From a virus, in IMG/VR virus record IMGVR_UViG_3300022074_002917, positions 1 to 20,234 of that record: a stretch of DNA of 20,234 nt; one strand, 5' to 3'. Positions 6,440 to 11,595 of the stretch are shown piece after piece. The position numbers were made by a program, and so were the translations under genes. The notes beneath the pieces are model-generated. The model did not search any database. It was given only the letters and a program-made list of their open reading frames with translations, and was not told where the DNA came from. Every line of letters starts with the position of its first letter. The stretch's first letter is position 1.

Positions 6440-6536
6440 TAGAAGTAATATACCAGAACATTTAAAACATTTAAAAGAGTGGAAATTAAAAGCATTATTA
6501 TTTATATTTAAACCAAGATGGATGCAGTCGAAGTAA
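6432..6536 (+). CDS. Possible tiny ORF, 34 aa, basic/hydrophobic
   Basis: An ATG frame bridges the only gap between the holin and the next membrane protein, overlapping the former by 8 nt and the latter by 19 nt. The product has a polar N-terminus (MIDRSNIPEHLKHLKEW), then a short hydrophobic stretch (ALLFIF) and a basic end. It could be a small membrane-active lysis peptide, or simply a leader that keeps ribosomes moving. No strong ribosome binding site is visible. It is supported by packing only. Confidence 0.35.
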   Translation: MIDRSNIPEHLKHLKEWKLKALLFIFKPRWMQSK

Positions 6537-6865
6537 TACAACAAGTAGGATTTCCTATTGCAGCAGCCCTAGGTTTAGGCTGGTTTATATATAAACTTAT
6601 TATGCGTATTGTTGATGGTATGGAAACTAAACTAGATACCATGGATGACAAAGTACAAACTGCATTGGACACAATGGAAGAAAGAGTATCTACTAAATTA
6701 GATAGTCAATATGGTATTATTGTAAGTCTAATTGATAGAGTAAGGGCAATGGACAATCAAAGTATTAGACAAGATGTATTGTTAAAAACTTTACTAGGTG
6801 TTCCAAATTTAATTGACATAGAAAAAATAGCAAAGGCAGAAAGAGATGACCAAAGGAAAGATTGA
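6518..6865 (+). CDS. Single-TM coiled-coil membrane protein, second holin/lysis-associated candidate
   Basis: 115-residue product with one N-terminal membrane helix (about 9-30, GFPIAAALGLGWFIYKLI) followed by a long heptad-like helix (31-75) in which METKLDTMDDKV and TMEERVSTKLD form an internal near-repeat. The topology (short N-terminus, one TM, soluble coiled coil) is like BhlA/XhlA-type holin-like proteins, and its position between the holin and csgF fits a lysis or membrane role. There is no lipobox and no proline-rich segment, so I do not call it a spanin. The end overlaps the csgF start by 20 nt. I do not recognise the exact family. Confidence 0.6.
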   Translation: MDAVEVIQQVGFPIAAALGLGWFIYKLIMRIVDGMETKLDTMDDKVQTALDTMEERVSTKLDSQYGIIVSLIDRVRAMDNQSIRQDVLLKTLLGVPNLIDIEKIAKAERDDQRKD

Positions 6866-7364
6866 TAGTATAGAAAATGTACACCCAATGAGACAAATAA
6901 CTATAGCTTCTATAGTACAGATAACAATGTTTGGATTTATGTTGTTATCTTTTTTTACAATAGATAAATTATTTGCAGATGAAATAGTACATAAATTTAA
7001 AAATCCAAGCTTTAGTGGTATAGGAACATCTGCCCATTATCTTACAATAGAAAACCAAGAACACATGCGTAAGATGACAATCAAAGAAGAACTAAAAGCT
7101 ATACAAGAACAAATAGAAAGAGACAAAGAAAATACAACACTTGCAAGATTTATAAGAAACTTAGAATCTAGAATATATGCACAACTATCCAGACAACTTG
7201 TAGAAAATTTATTTGGTGAGAATCCAAGTACAAGTGGGATATTAGAATTAGAAGGTAATACTATTGAATATAGTATTGAAGATGGAATTATAACTTTAAC
7301 AATTACAGATAGCGATGGGAATACGACAGTTATTCAGTTGCCTATTGGTGATTTTAGTTTCTAG
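6846..7364 (+). CDS. csgF: CsgF-like curli assembly protein
   Basis: CsgF is secreted through, and plugs into, the CsgG pore, where it couples curlin export to fibre nucleation at the cell surface. After a hydrophobic segment (residues 15-44, ending LFA) the mature part begins IVHKFKNPSFSG...LTIENQE, closely matching the E. coli CsgF constriction peptide region (QFRNPNFGG...LLNSAQAQN). The C-terminal third (EYSIEDGIITLTITD..GNTTVIQL) matches the CsgF C-terminal domain (DYIVDIANRDGQLQLNVTD...TSTIQV). Between them are about 60 helical residues, also as in CsgF. A longer open frame gives 14 extra cytosolic residues; the ATG at 6888 (Met15) would give a more ordinary signal peptide, although neither start has a good ribosome binding site. 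CsgF is periplasmic then extracellular. The gene precedes csgG and overlaps it by 50 nt. Confidence 0.85.
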   Translation: MTKGKIDSIENVHPMRQITIASIVQITMFGFMLLSFFTIDKLFADEIVHKFKNPSFSGIGTSAHYLTIENQEHMRKMTIKEELKAIQEQIERDKENTTLARFIRNLESRIYAQLSRQLVENLFGENPSTSGILELEGNTIEYSIEDGIITLTITDSDGNTTVIQLPIGDFSF

Positions 7365-8169
7365 TTGTGCAGTTCTAAGTCACAATACAGACCTAGCATT
7401 AACAAGAGATATAAAGTCTGCCAATATACTGAACTTACAATCAGAAGAATTATTAAATATACAGGCTGCTAAGAGACAGCCTATCATAGCAGTATACTCT
7501 AATAGTTTTCAAGACCTTACAGGTCAAAGAAAAAGTAATAGTAGTTTTGCTATGTTTAGTACTGCAGTTACACAAGCTCCAGAAGCTTTACTTATAAGAG
7601 CTTTGAAACATGCTGCAGATGGTAAATTTTTTAGGGTTGTTGAAAGGGTAGGTTTAGATAACCTAACTAAAGAAAGACAACTTATCAGGTCAACCAGAGA
7701 AAATTTCGAGGAAGACAAACAACTCAAACCTTTGTTATTTGCAGGACTGCTTATACAGGGTGGAGTTATTAGTTATGACACGAATATAGAATCTGGTGGT
7801 ATTGGAGCTAGGTATCTAGGAGTAGGTAGTAGCAAACAATACAGAGAAGATGTAGTAACTATATCGTTAAGATTAGTTTCTGTATCTACAGGTGAAGTAT
7901 TATTAGAGACTACAGTTTCTAAAAATATTTTATCAACAGGTGTTTCTCAAGATATATTTCGTTTTATTGAAATGGGCACAGAGCTTGTTGAAGTAGAAGG
8001 AGGTGTAGCAGAGAACGAAGCAGCTTCTATAGCTTTGCAAAAGGCAATAGAAACTGGAGTTTTAAATTTAATAGAAATAGGAATACAGAGAGGGTATTGG
8101 GAATATGAAAACATTGAAATTAATGAGCCTAGTTGTGATGCTGACTGCATTGACAGCTTACGGGGATGA
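7315..8169 (+). CDS. csgG: CsgG-like outer-membrane curli secretion pore (lipoprotein)
   Basis: CsgG forms a nonameric outer-membrane channel that exports unfolded curlin subunits. At 284 aa it matches the E. coli length (277) and aligns along its whole length: DLTGQ, FSTAV.Q...ALL..AL, FFRVVERVGLDNL..ER..IR, a GGIGARYLGVG signature, the VTISLRLVSVSTGEVL strand pair forming the barrel, FRFIE, and AIETGVLNLIEIGI.RG.W. A lipoprotein signal is present (Leu14-Val-Ser-Ser-Cys18), so the mature protein is lipidated at Cys18 and its periplasmic helices follow. The constriction loop differs from E. coli: GQRKSNSSFAMFSTAV is one residue longer, the Tyr51 equivalent is a polar Asn/Ser and the Asn55 equivalent is Met, while Phe56 is kept. 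The first 16 codons overlap csgF; the last 21 overlap the curlin-like gene. No CsgE gene is visible. Confidence 0.93.
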   Translation: MGIRQLFSCLLVILVSSCAVLSHNTDLALTRDIKSANILNLQSEELLNIQAAKRQPIIAVYSNSFQDLTGQRKSNSSFAMFSTAVTQAPEALLIRALKHAADGKFFRVVERVGLDNLTKERQLIRSTRENFEEDKQLKPLLFAGLLIQGGVISYDTNIESGGIGARYLGVGSSKQYREDVVTISLRLVSVSTGEVLLETTVSKNILSTGVSQDIFRFIEMGTELVEVEGGVAENEAASIALQKAIETGVLNLIEIGIQRGYWEYENIEINEPSCDADCIDSLRG

Positions 8170-8824
8170 TAATGAAATTTTTGTTGACCAATCTGGAGAC
8201 AATGCTAACATAGATTTAGAGCAACTTGGTAGTGGAAACATTATCGGTGGTTTAAATTCTACTGCTGGTAGTCTTACAAATCCATTAGATTTAGATGGAA
8301 GTGCTTTGACACTTGACATCAATCAAATAGGTGACACTAATAAATTTCTTGGTGATATACTAGGAGATAATATTACAGGTTATTTTAATTTTGATGGCAA
8401 CTCAAACGCTTTTACTATTCAGGTGGACCCAACAAATACTTATGGTGCTGACAGTTCTGACTTTGATGTACAAGTTAATGGAGATAGTAATACATTTACT
8501 TTAGATGTAGCTACTGATTCAATGGCTAGTAGTACTGATTTAGATTGGATTATCAATGGAAGTAGTAACACATTAGATTTTGATATAAATTATGATGGTG
8601 GTACTTCTTATGTTGATATAGATGGAGACAGTAATTCTGTTACTTTTGATGGAAGTGGATATGCTGGTGGTTATTTTTATCTAGACCAAACAGGAGATTC
8701 ACGAACTTTTAACATACAGCAATTAAGTACTTTAAATAATGATTGGCTCAAAATACTTTCAACTGGCGATTCTGGTACTGTGTGTGTCATCCAAGATGAT
8801 AATGGCACAGCAGTCGGATGCTAG
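8105..8824 (+). CDS. Secreted curlin-like repeat protein (candidate CsgA/CsgB analogue)
   Basis: Probable substrate of the CsgG pore. A signal peptide (residues 1-20, hydrophobic core LMSLVVMLTALTA) is followed by eight related beta-strand repeats beginning near residues 26, 68, 93, 120, 146, 168, 190 and 214, spaced 22-27 residues apart except one 42-residue step. The core consensus is hydrophobic-x-Asp-x-x-x-Gly-Asp-Ser-Asn-Thr-hydrophobic-x-hydrophobic-Asp; examples are QVNGDSNTFTLDV, IINGSSNTLDFDI and DIDGDSNSVTFDG. Repeat length and the G..N turn resemble curlin (S-x5-Q-x-G-x-x-N-x-A-x3-Q), and the first repeat (QSGDNANIDLEQLGSGN) is closest to true curlin, but the rest replace Gln ladders with Asp, making the protein very acidic. 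Two Cys (227, 239) sit in the C-terminal repeat. AGAGAGGG at 8087-8094 is a plausible ribosome binding site. It starts within csgG and ends within the fecR-like gene. Confidence 0.75.
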   Translation: MKTLKLMSLVVMLTALTAYGDDNEIFVDQSGDNANIDLEQLGSGNIIGGLNSTAGSLTNPLDLDGSALTLDINQIGDTNKFLGDILGDNITGYFNFDGNSNAFTIQVDPTNTYGADSSDFDVQVNGDSNTFTLDVATDSMASSTDLDWIINGSSNTLDFDINYDGGTSYVDIDGDSNSVTFDGSGYAGGYFYLDQTGDSRTFNIQQLSTLNNDWLKILSTGDSGTVCVIQDDNGTAVGC

Positions 8825-9845
8825 TATTGGAAGCGTAACCGAACTAAATGGCATAGGCAGGATTGTAAGGGATAAACCTTATGATGCTGCCTTATCATTT
8901 GACATTGAAAGTTATGACAATGTCGAAACTTCTAATGGTAGAATAGGAATAACATTTCTTAATGATACCAAAGTTAGACTAACAGAACATTCACAATTAC
9001 TCATAGATGAATTTATCTATGACCCTGACCCATCTAAATCTAAGATGGCTCTACAGTTTGCTAGTGGTACTGCAAGATTTATTACTGGTAAACTAAATAA
9101 TATAAACAAAGAGAACATTGCTATCTCAACTCCGAGTGCAAATGTTTCCATTCGTGGTACAGATTTTACAATTACAGTCAATGAACTGGGAGAATCTCTT
9201 ATTATATTATTACCCAAATCAGATGGTACTCCAAGTGGAGAAATACTAGTAGCTACTGCTGCAGGTGAAGTATTATTAAATCAACCATACCAAGCTACTA
9301 CAGTATCTATGTTTGAAGTAGAACCAAGTAAACCTGTGATATTGGATATTACTTTAGAACTCATAGATAATATGTTAATTGTAAATGAACCACAGGAAAT
9401 AGAAAGAAATGAAGGAGAGATTGGAACTAGGGTTTCTAGTATTCTTGATGTTGATTTCCTTGAGTTTGATGATTTAGAAGTAGATTATTTAGCAGAGGAT
9501 AATTTAGAATTTACAGAGTTAGATATAAATTATCTTGATGTAAATTTTCTTGAAGACCTATTAGATATAATAGAAGACATAAATGAATTAGACCAAACAG
9601 AAACTTTGCTACAAGCTGAATTAGATTTAAAAGGTACATCGTTTGGATTTGACCAAGAAACTCAAATAAATACTTTTAGTACAGACAATGTATTAACATT
9701 CTTAAAATCTTTAGAAGATACAGTAAGATTAGATTTAGATAAGTCTGGTGCTTACACAGTAATATTAATACAGAATGGAAAGAGTACACAGATTATAGTG
9801 AATGGTGGTGGCTCTTCTACAATAACAATTAGACAAGGTAGTTAA
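8739..9845 (+). CDS. Periplasmic FecR-domain protein with acidic repeat region
   Basis: The N-terminus has a signal-peptide-like segment (1-23, FQLAILVLCVSS then MIMA). Residues about 31-148 form a FecR-type domain: IGSVTELNGIGRIVRD, GRIGITFLNDTKVRL, SQLLIDEFIYDP, ASGTARFITGKL and the hallmark TPSANVSIRGTDFTITV. Classical FecR is a TM anti-sigma regulator; here there is no downstream TM helix and no sigma factor gene nearby, so the domain should be free in the periplasm. Residues 233-285 form an unusual Asp/Glu/Leu repeat (for example LDVDFLEFDDLEVDYL), and the last 30 residues are a Gly/Ser/Asn-rich beta segment (VILIQNGKSTQIIVNGGGSS) faintly like a curlin repeat. The start lies within the curlin-like gene (86-nt overlap) without an obvious ribosome binding site; only this ATG provides the signal peptide. 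One base separates its stop from the cyclase gene. Confidence 0.8.
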   Translation: MIGSKYFQLAILVLCVSSKMIMAQQSDASIGSVTELNGIGRIVRDKPYDAALSFDIESYDNVETSNGRIGITFLNDTKVRLTEHSQLLIDEFIYDPDPSKSKMALQFASGTARFITGKLNNINKENIAISTPSANVSIRGTDFTITVNELGESLIILLPKSDGTPSGEILVATAAGEVLLNQPYQATTVSMFEVEPSKPVILDITLELIDNMLIVNEPQEIERNEGEIGTRVSSILDVDFLEFDDLEVDYLAEDNLEFTELDINYLDVNFLEDLLDIIEDINELDQTETLLQAELDLKGTSFGFDQETQINTFSTDNVLTFLKSLEDTVRLDLDKSGAYTVILIQNGKSTQIIVNGGGSSTITIRQGS

Positions 9846-9846
9846 T

Positions 9847-11595
9847 ATGAAGTGGGCTAGTTTATTATTAGGATTACTTACGCTTCCATTGTTATTTAAC
9901 TTTGGACCCTTAGAGGTCATGAGATTAAAAACATTTGATGCATTAGTCAAAACACCAGAACCATCTGGTTATTTTACCATATTAAATATTACAGAAGAGG
10001 ATGTCCAAAAGAGAGGAGGCTATCCTTTTCCAAGAGCAGACTTAGCTGACATACATATAGACTTATTGAATGAAGGAGCAATGGGTGTAGGTTGGGTAAT
10101 ATTATTTCCACAACCTGACAGACTAGGTGGCGATGAAGAGTTTGCAGATGCTTTACAATGGAGACATACTGTATTAGCAATGCCAGAGTTTAATAATAAT
10201 ATTTATCCTGAAACTCATGGTACTGTTATACTAGGACCAGATGTAAATTTACCACAGGCAAAAGGATTTTTAGAAAACATACCTCAATTAAAAGAAGTAG
10301 CAGTACAAGGTGCTGTCTCTGCTCCAGTAGATGTAGATAATCTTGTAAGAAGATTACCATTACTACAACAAACTCCGGATGGTTGGGTTGCTTCTTTCGG
10401 TATACAAGTTTTAAAGTCATTAGTAGAAGGAACTACATATCAAATAAAAACTAATGACAATGGTATTGAGATGATAAGAGTCAAAGGACTTGACCCAATA
10501 CCAACAGATAGTCTTGGTCGTAAATGGATTAGTTGGGTTGATACACCACAGACTACATTAGAGGAGATGGATGTTGCAGGTAAGTTTGTATTTGTAGGTG
10601 TTACTGCAGCAGGGGTAATGCCCACTTTAGCCACGCCAAATGGGCTATTAGAACCTCACAAGATACAGGCTGCCCTTGCAGAAAGTATTTTGATTAACTC
10701 TCCTTCCATACCCGACTATAGATTATTTGTAGAACTTATTTTATTATGCATATCAGGATTATTAATAACCTTCGTGATAAATCGCTTTGGTATTACTATG
10801 GGTGTATCATTGGCAGGTACGCTGATATTGTCGATGGGTGGGCTAGGTTACTATTTAATATCTCGAGGCTTTTTAGTTGATGTCACATGGAGTATGACAT
10901 GTATGACACTTTTGTCATTACAACAATTCTATTTAAGATTCAGAGAACAATATAAACTAAGACAACAAATCAAGAAACAGTTTGGTCATTACCTTGACCC
11001 AAGACAAGTAAAACAATTACAAGAAAATCCTGGACTGTTAAAGTTAGGTGGTGAGAGAAAGTATTGCACCATGTTATTTACTGATGTCAGAGGTTTTACA
11101 AACTTATCAGAAACATTAGAACCAGAACAAGTAACAGAGTTAATGAATAAAACATTAACCATACAAGCTAATGCAGTTAAGAAGTATGGTGGCATGGTTG
11201 ATAAATATATAGGTGATGCGATGATGGCTATCTTTAATGCTCCATTAGATTTAGATAACCACGAAGACAGAGCAATACTTACAGCTATAGAAATTAAAAG
11301 AAAAATGTTGGATGCAAACTTAGGTATTGAGATTGGTATTGGAATTAATTCAGGCGATGTTCTGTTAGGGAACTGTGGGTCAGAAGATAGATTCGATTAT
11401 ACTGCTATAGGTTCAGATGTAAACCTTGCAGCTCGATGTGAAAGTAGTTGTAAGGAAGTAGGAGAAGATATTGTGATAGCAAGAAACACTATTGAGAACA
11501 CAAATATCTATGTTGATAAGTTAAAACCTATAAAAATGAAGGGAATTTCTAAACCTGTAGAGATTTACACAGTAAATTTAGCTCAATATCTCTAA
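9847..11595 (+). CDS. CHASE2-domain membrane adenylate cyclase (class III)
   Basis: Predicted to sense a periplasmic signal and make cAMP from ATP in the cytoplasm. Order of parts: one N-terminal membrane helix (4-20); an extracytoplasmic CHASE2 domain (about 25-285, beginning VMRLKTFDALVK and including GYPFPRADLADIH); three membrane helices (about 293-311, 316-338, 343-360); a charged linker; and a class III cyclase domain (about 403-575). The catalytic set looks complete: metal-binding Asp413 (FTDVRGFT) and Asp457 (YIGDAMMAIF), adenine-selecting Lys453 and Thr519 (DYTAIGSDVNLAAR), and transition-state Asn526 and Arg530. The Lys/Thr pair is the one seen in CyaC-like adenylate cyclases, not guanylate or pyrimidine cyclases. 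AAGG at 9835-9838 precedes the ATG. FecR genes beside CHASE2 cyclases are known in bacteria (from memory); a phage copy is unusual. Confidence 0.93.
   Translation: MKWASLLLGLLTLPLLFNFGPLEVMRLKTFDALVKTPEPSGYFTILNITEEDVQKRGGYPFPRADLADIHIDLLNEGAMGVGWVILFPQPDRLGGDEEFADALQWRHTVLAMPEFNNNIYPETHGTVILGPDVNLPQAKGFLENIPQLKEVAVQGAVSAPVDVDNLVRRLPLLQQTPDGWVASFGIQVLKSLVEGTTYQIKTNDNGIEMIRVKGLDPIPTDSLGRKWISWVDTPQTTLEEMDVAGKFVFVGVTAAGVMPTLATPNGLLEPHKIQAALAESILINSPSIPDYRLFVELILLCISGLLITFVINRFGITMGVSLAGTLILSMGGLGYYLISRGFLVDVTWSMTCMTLLSLQQFYLRFREQYKLRQQIKKQFGHYLDPRQVKQLQENPGLLKLGGERKYCTMLFTDVRGFTNLSETLEPEQVTELMNKTLTIQANAVKKYGGMVDKYIGDAMMAIFNAPLDLDNHEDRAILTAIEIKRKMLDANLGIEIGIGINSGDVLLGNCGSEDRFDYTAIGSDVNLAARCESSCKEVGEDIVIARNTIENTNIYVDKLKPIKMKGISKPVEIYTVNLAQYL

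Follow-up and report, generated by a model that had tools for sequence, protein, structure and literature searches.

A predicted envelope-sensing adenylate cyclase at the end of the curli module in a probable SAR11 phage

Few biological entities in the ocean are as abundant as SAR11 bacteria and their phages. Some phages encode curli, and the role of these genes is unsettled: sibling capture, a block to superinfection and a lysis pore have been proposed. The closest described system is a T8SS (curli) module with FecR and an adenylate cyclase, reported from HTVC023P-type podophages and pelagimyophages, marine phages with SAR11 as their presumed host (Wittmers et al., 2022, mSystems; PMC9599517). 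In this module, csgF, csgG, a curlin repeat gene, fecR and the cyclase gene follow one another in that order, and a histidine kinase gene was reported upstream of csgF. Curli modules without a cyclase were also reported in the same study (PMC9599517), and phage curli without cyclase is treated in two further papers (PMC7029224, PMC9004378). As to regulation, the cAMP-CRP-CsgD route of E. coli was offered by analogy, and CHASE2 is not mentioned (PMC9599517). A phage adenylate cyclase is therefore not new, and the phage described here adds one more carrier to a module already known. What is new is that the carrier belongs to another podophage lineage, that the cyclase accompanies curli with such constancy, that the module looks like a joining of two bacterial ones, and that recognised CRP is missing from the likely host family.

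The sequence analysed, hereafter the window, is an IMG/VR record of 20,234 bases. Since its relatives reach 50-59 kb, it is probably a fragment. Between positions 6846 and 11595 it contains, contiguously and on one strand, csgF-csgG-csgA/B-fecR-cyclase, with the cyclase gene last. The curli assembly factor CsgF (6846-7364, + strand, 172 aa) was recognised by its Pfam profile (E 7.6e-18). CsgG, the outer-membrane secretion pore of curli (7315-8169, +, 284 aa), matched Pfam CsgG at E 1.1e-51 and NCBIfam CsgG at E 3.8e-49, the latter under that model's cut-off, and has a lipoprotein-type signal by inspection. The curlin-like repeat protein of the CsgA/B type (8105-8824, +, 239 aa) is a weak profile match, with Curlin_rpt at E 0.004, below the Pfam cut-off, and the CsgB/CsgA models at E 0.001-0.003; it has a signal-peptide-like N-terminus, and its place and order match those of annotated curlin proteins in HTVC008M and Melnitz. 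Next comes a FecR-domain protein (8739-9845, +, 368 aa; Pfam FecR E 9.5e-10), whose N-terminus is signal-peptide-like by inspection. Consecutive genes from csgF to fecR overlap by about 50, 65 and 86 bases, and a single base separates the fecR stop codon from the ATG of the cyclase gene. The signal-peptide-like N-termini in the stretch 6846-9845 are encoded within the ends of the preceding genes. No CsgE was seen within the window, and shuffled sequence gave about as many promoter-like and terminator-like sites as the real sequence did. The first-pass annotation, which had singled out the cyclase, overlooked its curli/FecR module context.

Compared with the published module, the window lacks the second curlin gene, and its G+C content is about 33%, against a mean of 42% in HTVC023P-type phages (PMC9599517). 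Directly upstream of csgF, where the histidine kinase was reported as an accompanying rather than a core gene (PMC9599517), the window encodes a 115-aa protein (6518-6865, +; PHROG 18771) that has a single hydrophobic segment and, after it, a stretch resembling a coiled coil. This protein has no kinase domain by Pfam or NCBIfam and no Pfam match over the cut-off; the other five genes are all present. Two myophages, HTVC008M (SAR11; KC465899) and Melnitz (OM43; MZ577095-98), also have the cyclase as the last gene of the curli module, and their cyclases align over 95% of the query. They are, however, just 31-35% identical to the window cyclase, and in these genomes fecR and the cyclase gene are separated by one additional gene, curlin-like or hypothetical.

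The window phage can be placed through its relatives. Most genes of a 55-kb relative, L015, are 93-100% identical to those of the window, and the L015 TerL is 66-67% identical to those of HTVC103P, HTVC104P and HTVC115P. Identity between the window and HTVC115P is 72% for NrdB, 58% for NrdA and 50% for PolA. Membership of the HTVC023P type requires a PolA at least 45% similar to that of HTVC023P/HTVC027P (PMC9599517); the window PolA, compared with that of HTVC027P, shows 27% over 223 aa (E 1e-13). By these comparisons the phage belongs to a podophage lineage near HTVC103P/104P/115P, other than the HTVC023P type of Wittmers et al., whose GOV2.0 survey may have included contigs of this lineage without naming it. 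We found no published module in HTVC103P-type phages in the literature searched, and no csgG or cyclase match in the isolates HTVC103P, HTVC104P and HTVC115P. The corresponding site of HTVC115P, between nrdB and the structural arm, is occupied by small genes and an Hsp20 gene, which places the module at a variable junction. The first-pass annotation called the phage lytic. The absence of a tyrosine integrase from 13 related records, some of them fragments, fits this description, although it does not prove it.

The host is probably SAR11, judging from the likeness of TerL, NrdB and PolA to those of HTVC115P-type pelagiphages and from the presence of curli-phage contigs in two SAR11-family assemblies. 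Both contigs, L314 (G017:C1) and L315 (G043:C11), carry the full curli-FecR-cyclase module, and the assemblies would represent infected cells if they derive from single cells. The layout of structural genes in L314 differs, and it may belong to another phage lineage.

The cyclase gene (9847-11595, +) starts with ATG and encodes 582 aa without an internal stop, in agreement with the intact frame noted at first pass. It is a CHASE2 protein with a class III (IIIb-like) nucleotide cyclase domain: CHASE2 (PF05226) covers aa 13-305 (E 4.8e-28) and Guanylate_cyc (PF00211) aa 406-576 (E 4.4e-19), both well over the Pfam cut-offs. Hydropathy locates an N-terminal hydrophobic segment at about 4-24 and a block at about 290-360 after CHASE2, which bears out the earlier description of the protein as transmembrane. 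From CHASE2 the protein thus runs through this membrane block and a helical linker to the cyclase domain, and an AlphaFold2 model has helices at 292-339 and 347-379 ahead of that domain. A CHASE2 domain, a transmembrane block and an output domain, in that order, are the marks of the CHASE2 sensor family, with CHASE2 placed by prediction outside the inner membrane.

In a phmmer search, aa 374-577 matched class III cyclases of known structure, with P. aeruginosa CyaB (3r5g) at E 1.8e-29. The residues on which the first reading relied, D413 and D457 for metal, K453 and T519 for base selection, N526 and R530 for the transition state, proved to be exactly those letters when each position was checked, and together they characterise a class III adenylyl cyclase of IIIb-like type. 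The metal Asp pair is matched in the best phmmer alignments (CyaB 3r5g, Cya2 2w01). CyaB and Spirulina CyaC, both class IIIb adenylyl cyclases, share with the window protein the catalytic domain, the metal Asp pair and the transition-state Asn/Arg. They differ from it in being cellular enzymes with other sensor domains. The Lys/Thr pair is also present in CyaB, whereas in the crystallised domain of Cya2 (2w01), which carries the name guanylyl cyclase, these places are taken by Glu and Gly. Beside the adenine-selecting Lys, Thr or Ser is the class IIIb residue and Asp the class IIIa one. Since Lys with Thr or Ser at the base-selecting positions is the CyaB arrangement, ATP is our best guess for the substrate, as had already been predicted from the pair.

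The AlphaFold2 model, built on 20 related sequences, is of moderate confidence (mean pLDDT 68.7, pTM 0.53). A Foldseek search against the PDB ranked class III cyclases first (CyaC, CyaB, Cya2, OaPAC), and the cyclase-domain model aligned with the isolated domains of CyaC and CyaB at TM scores, taken over the target, of about 0.71-0.77. The pLDDT falls to about 40-54 around residues 453-463 and 508-520. The model thus supports the class III fold, not the detail of the active site.

How firmly is the cyclase tied to curli? Of the csgG loci collected, 44 extend 4 kb or more downstream, and fecR and the cyclase gene are present in every one of these; the sample was drawn with the window csgG and covers relatives down to about 51% identity rather than all phage curli. 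The cyclase is inverted, on the strand opposite fecR, in 13 of 112 distinct loci (for example L004, L006, L007, L008, L009 and L010), and co-transcription with curli is therefore not obligatory. At the inspected loci the inverted gene lies between fecR and a small gene beside nrdB, adjoins the nrd genes and runs in their direction; it is intact, so that the cyclase is kept even where its transcription is separated from curli. On a FastTree tree, three changes of orientation are needed. In a near-identical relative (L318, 18233-18670) an extra 146-aa ORF, Hsp20-like by inspection and missing from the window, lies between the cyclase gene and nrdB.

Bacterial loci offer an indication of where the module came from. 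Alphaproteobacterial CHASE2-adenylate cyclases have the domain order of the window protein; at about 740-800 aa they are usually longer, and they are about 30-40% identical to it. Twelve of 20 such loci have a FecR-domain ORF no more than about 5 kb away, and in four of the 20 it is immediately upstream on the same strand, while csg genes were near none of the 20. Conversely, neither FecR nor a cyclase was found in any of 20 bacterial csgF loci, which provide no ready-made bacterial ancestor of the module. The association of FecR with CHASE2-cyclases rather than with curli (12/20 against 0/20) gives a Fisher p of 4.5e-5, for loci that were mostly top-ranked matches and not a random sample. This pattern agrees with Wittmers et al. 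(PMC9599517), and the phage module looks like two bacterial modules joined, FecR-CHASE2-cyclase and curli.

We consider it probable that the protein is an envelope-sensing, membrane-bound, dimeric adenylyl cyclase standing at the end of the curli module, with FecR as its candidate partner. The cyclase would form the signalling end of the module, anchored in the inner membrane with CHASE2 in the periplasm and the catalytic domain in the cytoplasm. CHASE2, paired with the secreted FecR protein encoded just upstream, would sense conditions in the envelope of the infected cell, such as the secretion or assembly of curli via CsgG/CsgF. While curli is being made during infection, the cyclase would act as a dimer and convert ATP to cAMP. 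FecR is a candidate partner by gene neighbourhood only. This reading would leave the signal without an output, in that a known cAMP receptor was found in neither the presumed host nor the phage.

The receptor was sought in 148 SAR11-family genomes that passed an 80% completeness filter, with 143 genomes sampled across the class for comparison. PF00211 occurred in two of the 148, both times on the phage contigs carrying the curli module; a class III cyclase encoded by the host itself turned up in none of them. The domain by which CRP binds cAMP, PF00027, was present in just 10 of the 148 SAR11-family genomes as against 107 of the 143 class-wide ones. The two types of SAR11 PF00027 protein that were read are not CRP. 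One of them recurs; it is a multidomain protein of 863 aa and contains two divergent cNMP-like regions. The other, of CRP size, is FNR-like, with cysteines clustered in its N-terminal part. A recognised CRP was not found in any of the 148 genomes. Beyond these two types, genome G017 has two PF00027 matches, which lie in open frames about 1000 aa long. The 863-aa protein, which belongs to a SAR11 subgroup, also has regions that look like an acyltransferase and a GDSL-type domain (L317, 2498-5089). For the host family as a whole, the absence of class III cyclase and CRP would be a strong tendency, not proof. A cAMP receptor encoded by the phage itself was considered and rejected, PF00027 (cNMP-binding) proteins being absent from 15 related phage records, some of them fragments.

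Possible, at distinctly lower probability than the envelope-sensing cyclase set out above, is that the output goes to a non-classical reader, be it a phage or host cAMP binder of a kind not recognised, or that the enzyme has a non-signalling role such as draining ATP or releasing cAMP to neighbouring cells. The near-absence of PF00027 from SAR11 and its absence from the phage records, in the face of conserved catalytic residues and a cyclase that stays with curli, would fit this idea. However, absence in a profile search is weak evidence when the host genomes are not complete and a number of the phage records are fragmentary, and the search covered PF00027, one cNMP-binding fold beside GAF and others. 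It is a still more tentative, and on balance doubtful, suggestion that the phage brings an envelope-sensing cAMP device, composed of a bacterial FecR-CHASE2-cyclase unit and a curli operon, into a host without a class III cyclase of its own or a CRP-type receptor, and so creates a phage-made second-messenger pathway whose reader would be of an unrecognised type. With the cyclase near-constant in the module and a host family without recognised CRP, what was a vague "regulatory gene" now poses something that experiment can address, namely what cAMP does without CRP. HTVC008M is cultured and has a homologue, and the question can be tested now.

Action through host CRP, by rewiring of carbon metabolism or of the cell surface, or by an E. 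coli-type cAMP-CRP-CsgD switch that turns curli on, is improbable. It would draw on cAMP as the predicted product and on the curli genes in the same operon. Against it stand the PF00027 counts, the nature of the SAR11 proteins read and the lack of a host-encoded class III cyclase; with no CRP-type receptor recognised in the 148 SAR11-family genomes or in the 15 phage records, control by CRP of the kind that E. coli exerts over its curli is unlikely. Host CRP control was accordingly rejected as the main explanation, and the rewiring of host carbon metabolism suggested at first pass loses its footing in a likely SAR11 host family without recognised CRP.

A marginally lower probability attaches to a passenger gene without active enzyme, retained by its linkage to curli. 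At least 599 coding relatives of the cyclase were found in IMG/VR, far more than expected by chance, and the best 80 of these were retained. Among 114 distinct cyclase sequences, D413, D457 and R530 are kept in all, K453 in 113, with X in the remaining one, and N526 in 113, while position 519 is S in 59, T in 54 and D in one. Residue loss of the kind named at first pass as a refutation appeared in one distant case: of the two myophage homologues, which have S or D at 519, that of Melnitz accounts for both odd residues, D at 519 and S at 526 in place of N. The missing N526 would speak for a passenger, but this homologue retains the two metal Asp as well as the Lys and Arg. At locus L038 the cyclase ends early, at 420 aa, which would also favour a passenger but may be an assembly error. 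Against this, median dN/dS (Nei-Gojobori) was 0.18 for aa 1-375 (the CHASE2 part) and 0.13 for aa 376-582 (the cyclase part), calculated from 315 pairs whose dS was below 1, figures that are rough because many dS values are high and the pairs share ancestry. The gene is under purifying selection, as first proposed, and it persists even where inversion has taken it off the curli strand. In L015 (8001-9725) the cyclase gene is 93% identical to that of the window and the neighbouring genes 98-100%; the divergence gathers in the catalytic half, where L015 is nearer to L003, which suggests recombination inside the gene.

Least probable of all is a part in, or a counter to, cyclic-nucleotide immunity of the Pycsar or CBASS type, the interference envisaged at first pass and here rejected: the PADLOC PycC profiles do match (best E 2e-26), but over the catalytic domain only, as expected from common ancestry given the class III fold that PycC and other pyrimidine cyclases have in common with adenylyl cyclases, and the neighbours are curli and FecR rather than the adjacent cyclic-nucleotide-binding effector by which Pycsar is recognised, the Lys/Thr pair is that of CyaB, and the 15 related phage records lack PF00027.

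The sensor domain of the phage cyclase has counterparts in SAR11 itself. With the two phage contigs set aside, 17 of 118 SAR11-family genomes encode CHASE2. Three of these host proteins were read (L404, L405 and L407); they are about 690 aa long and share the CHASE2 sensor with the window cyclase, but their C-terminal output domain is, by inspection, PP2C/RsbU-type phosphatase-like and not a cyclase.
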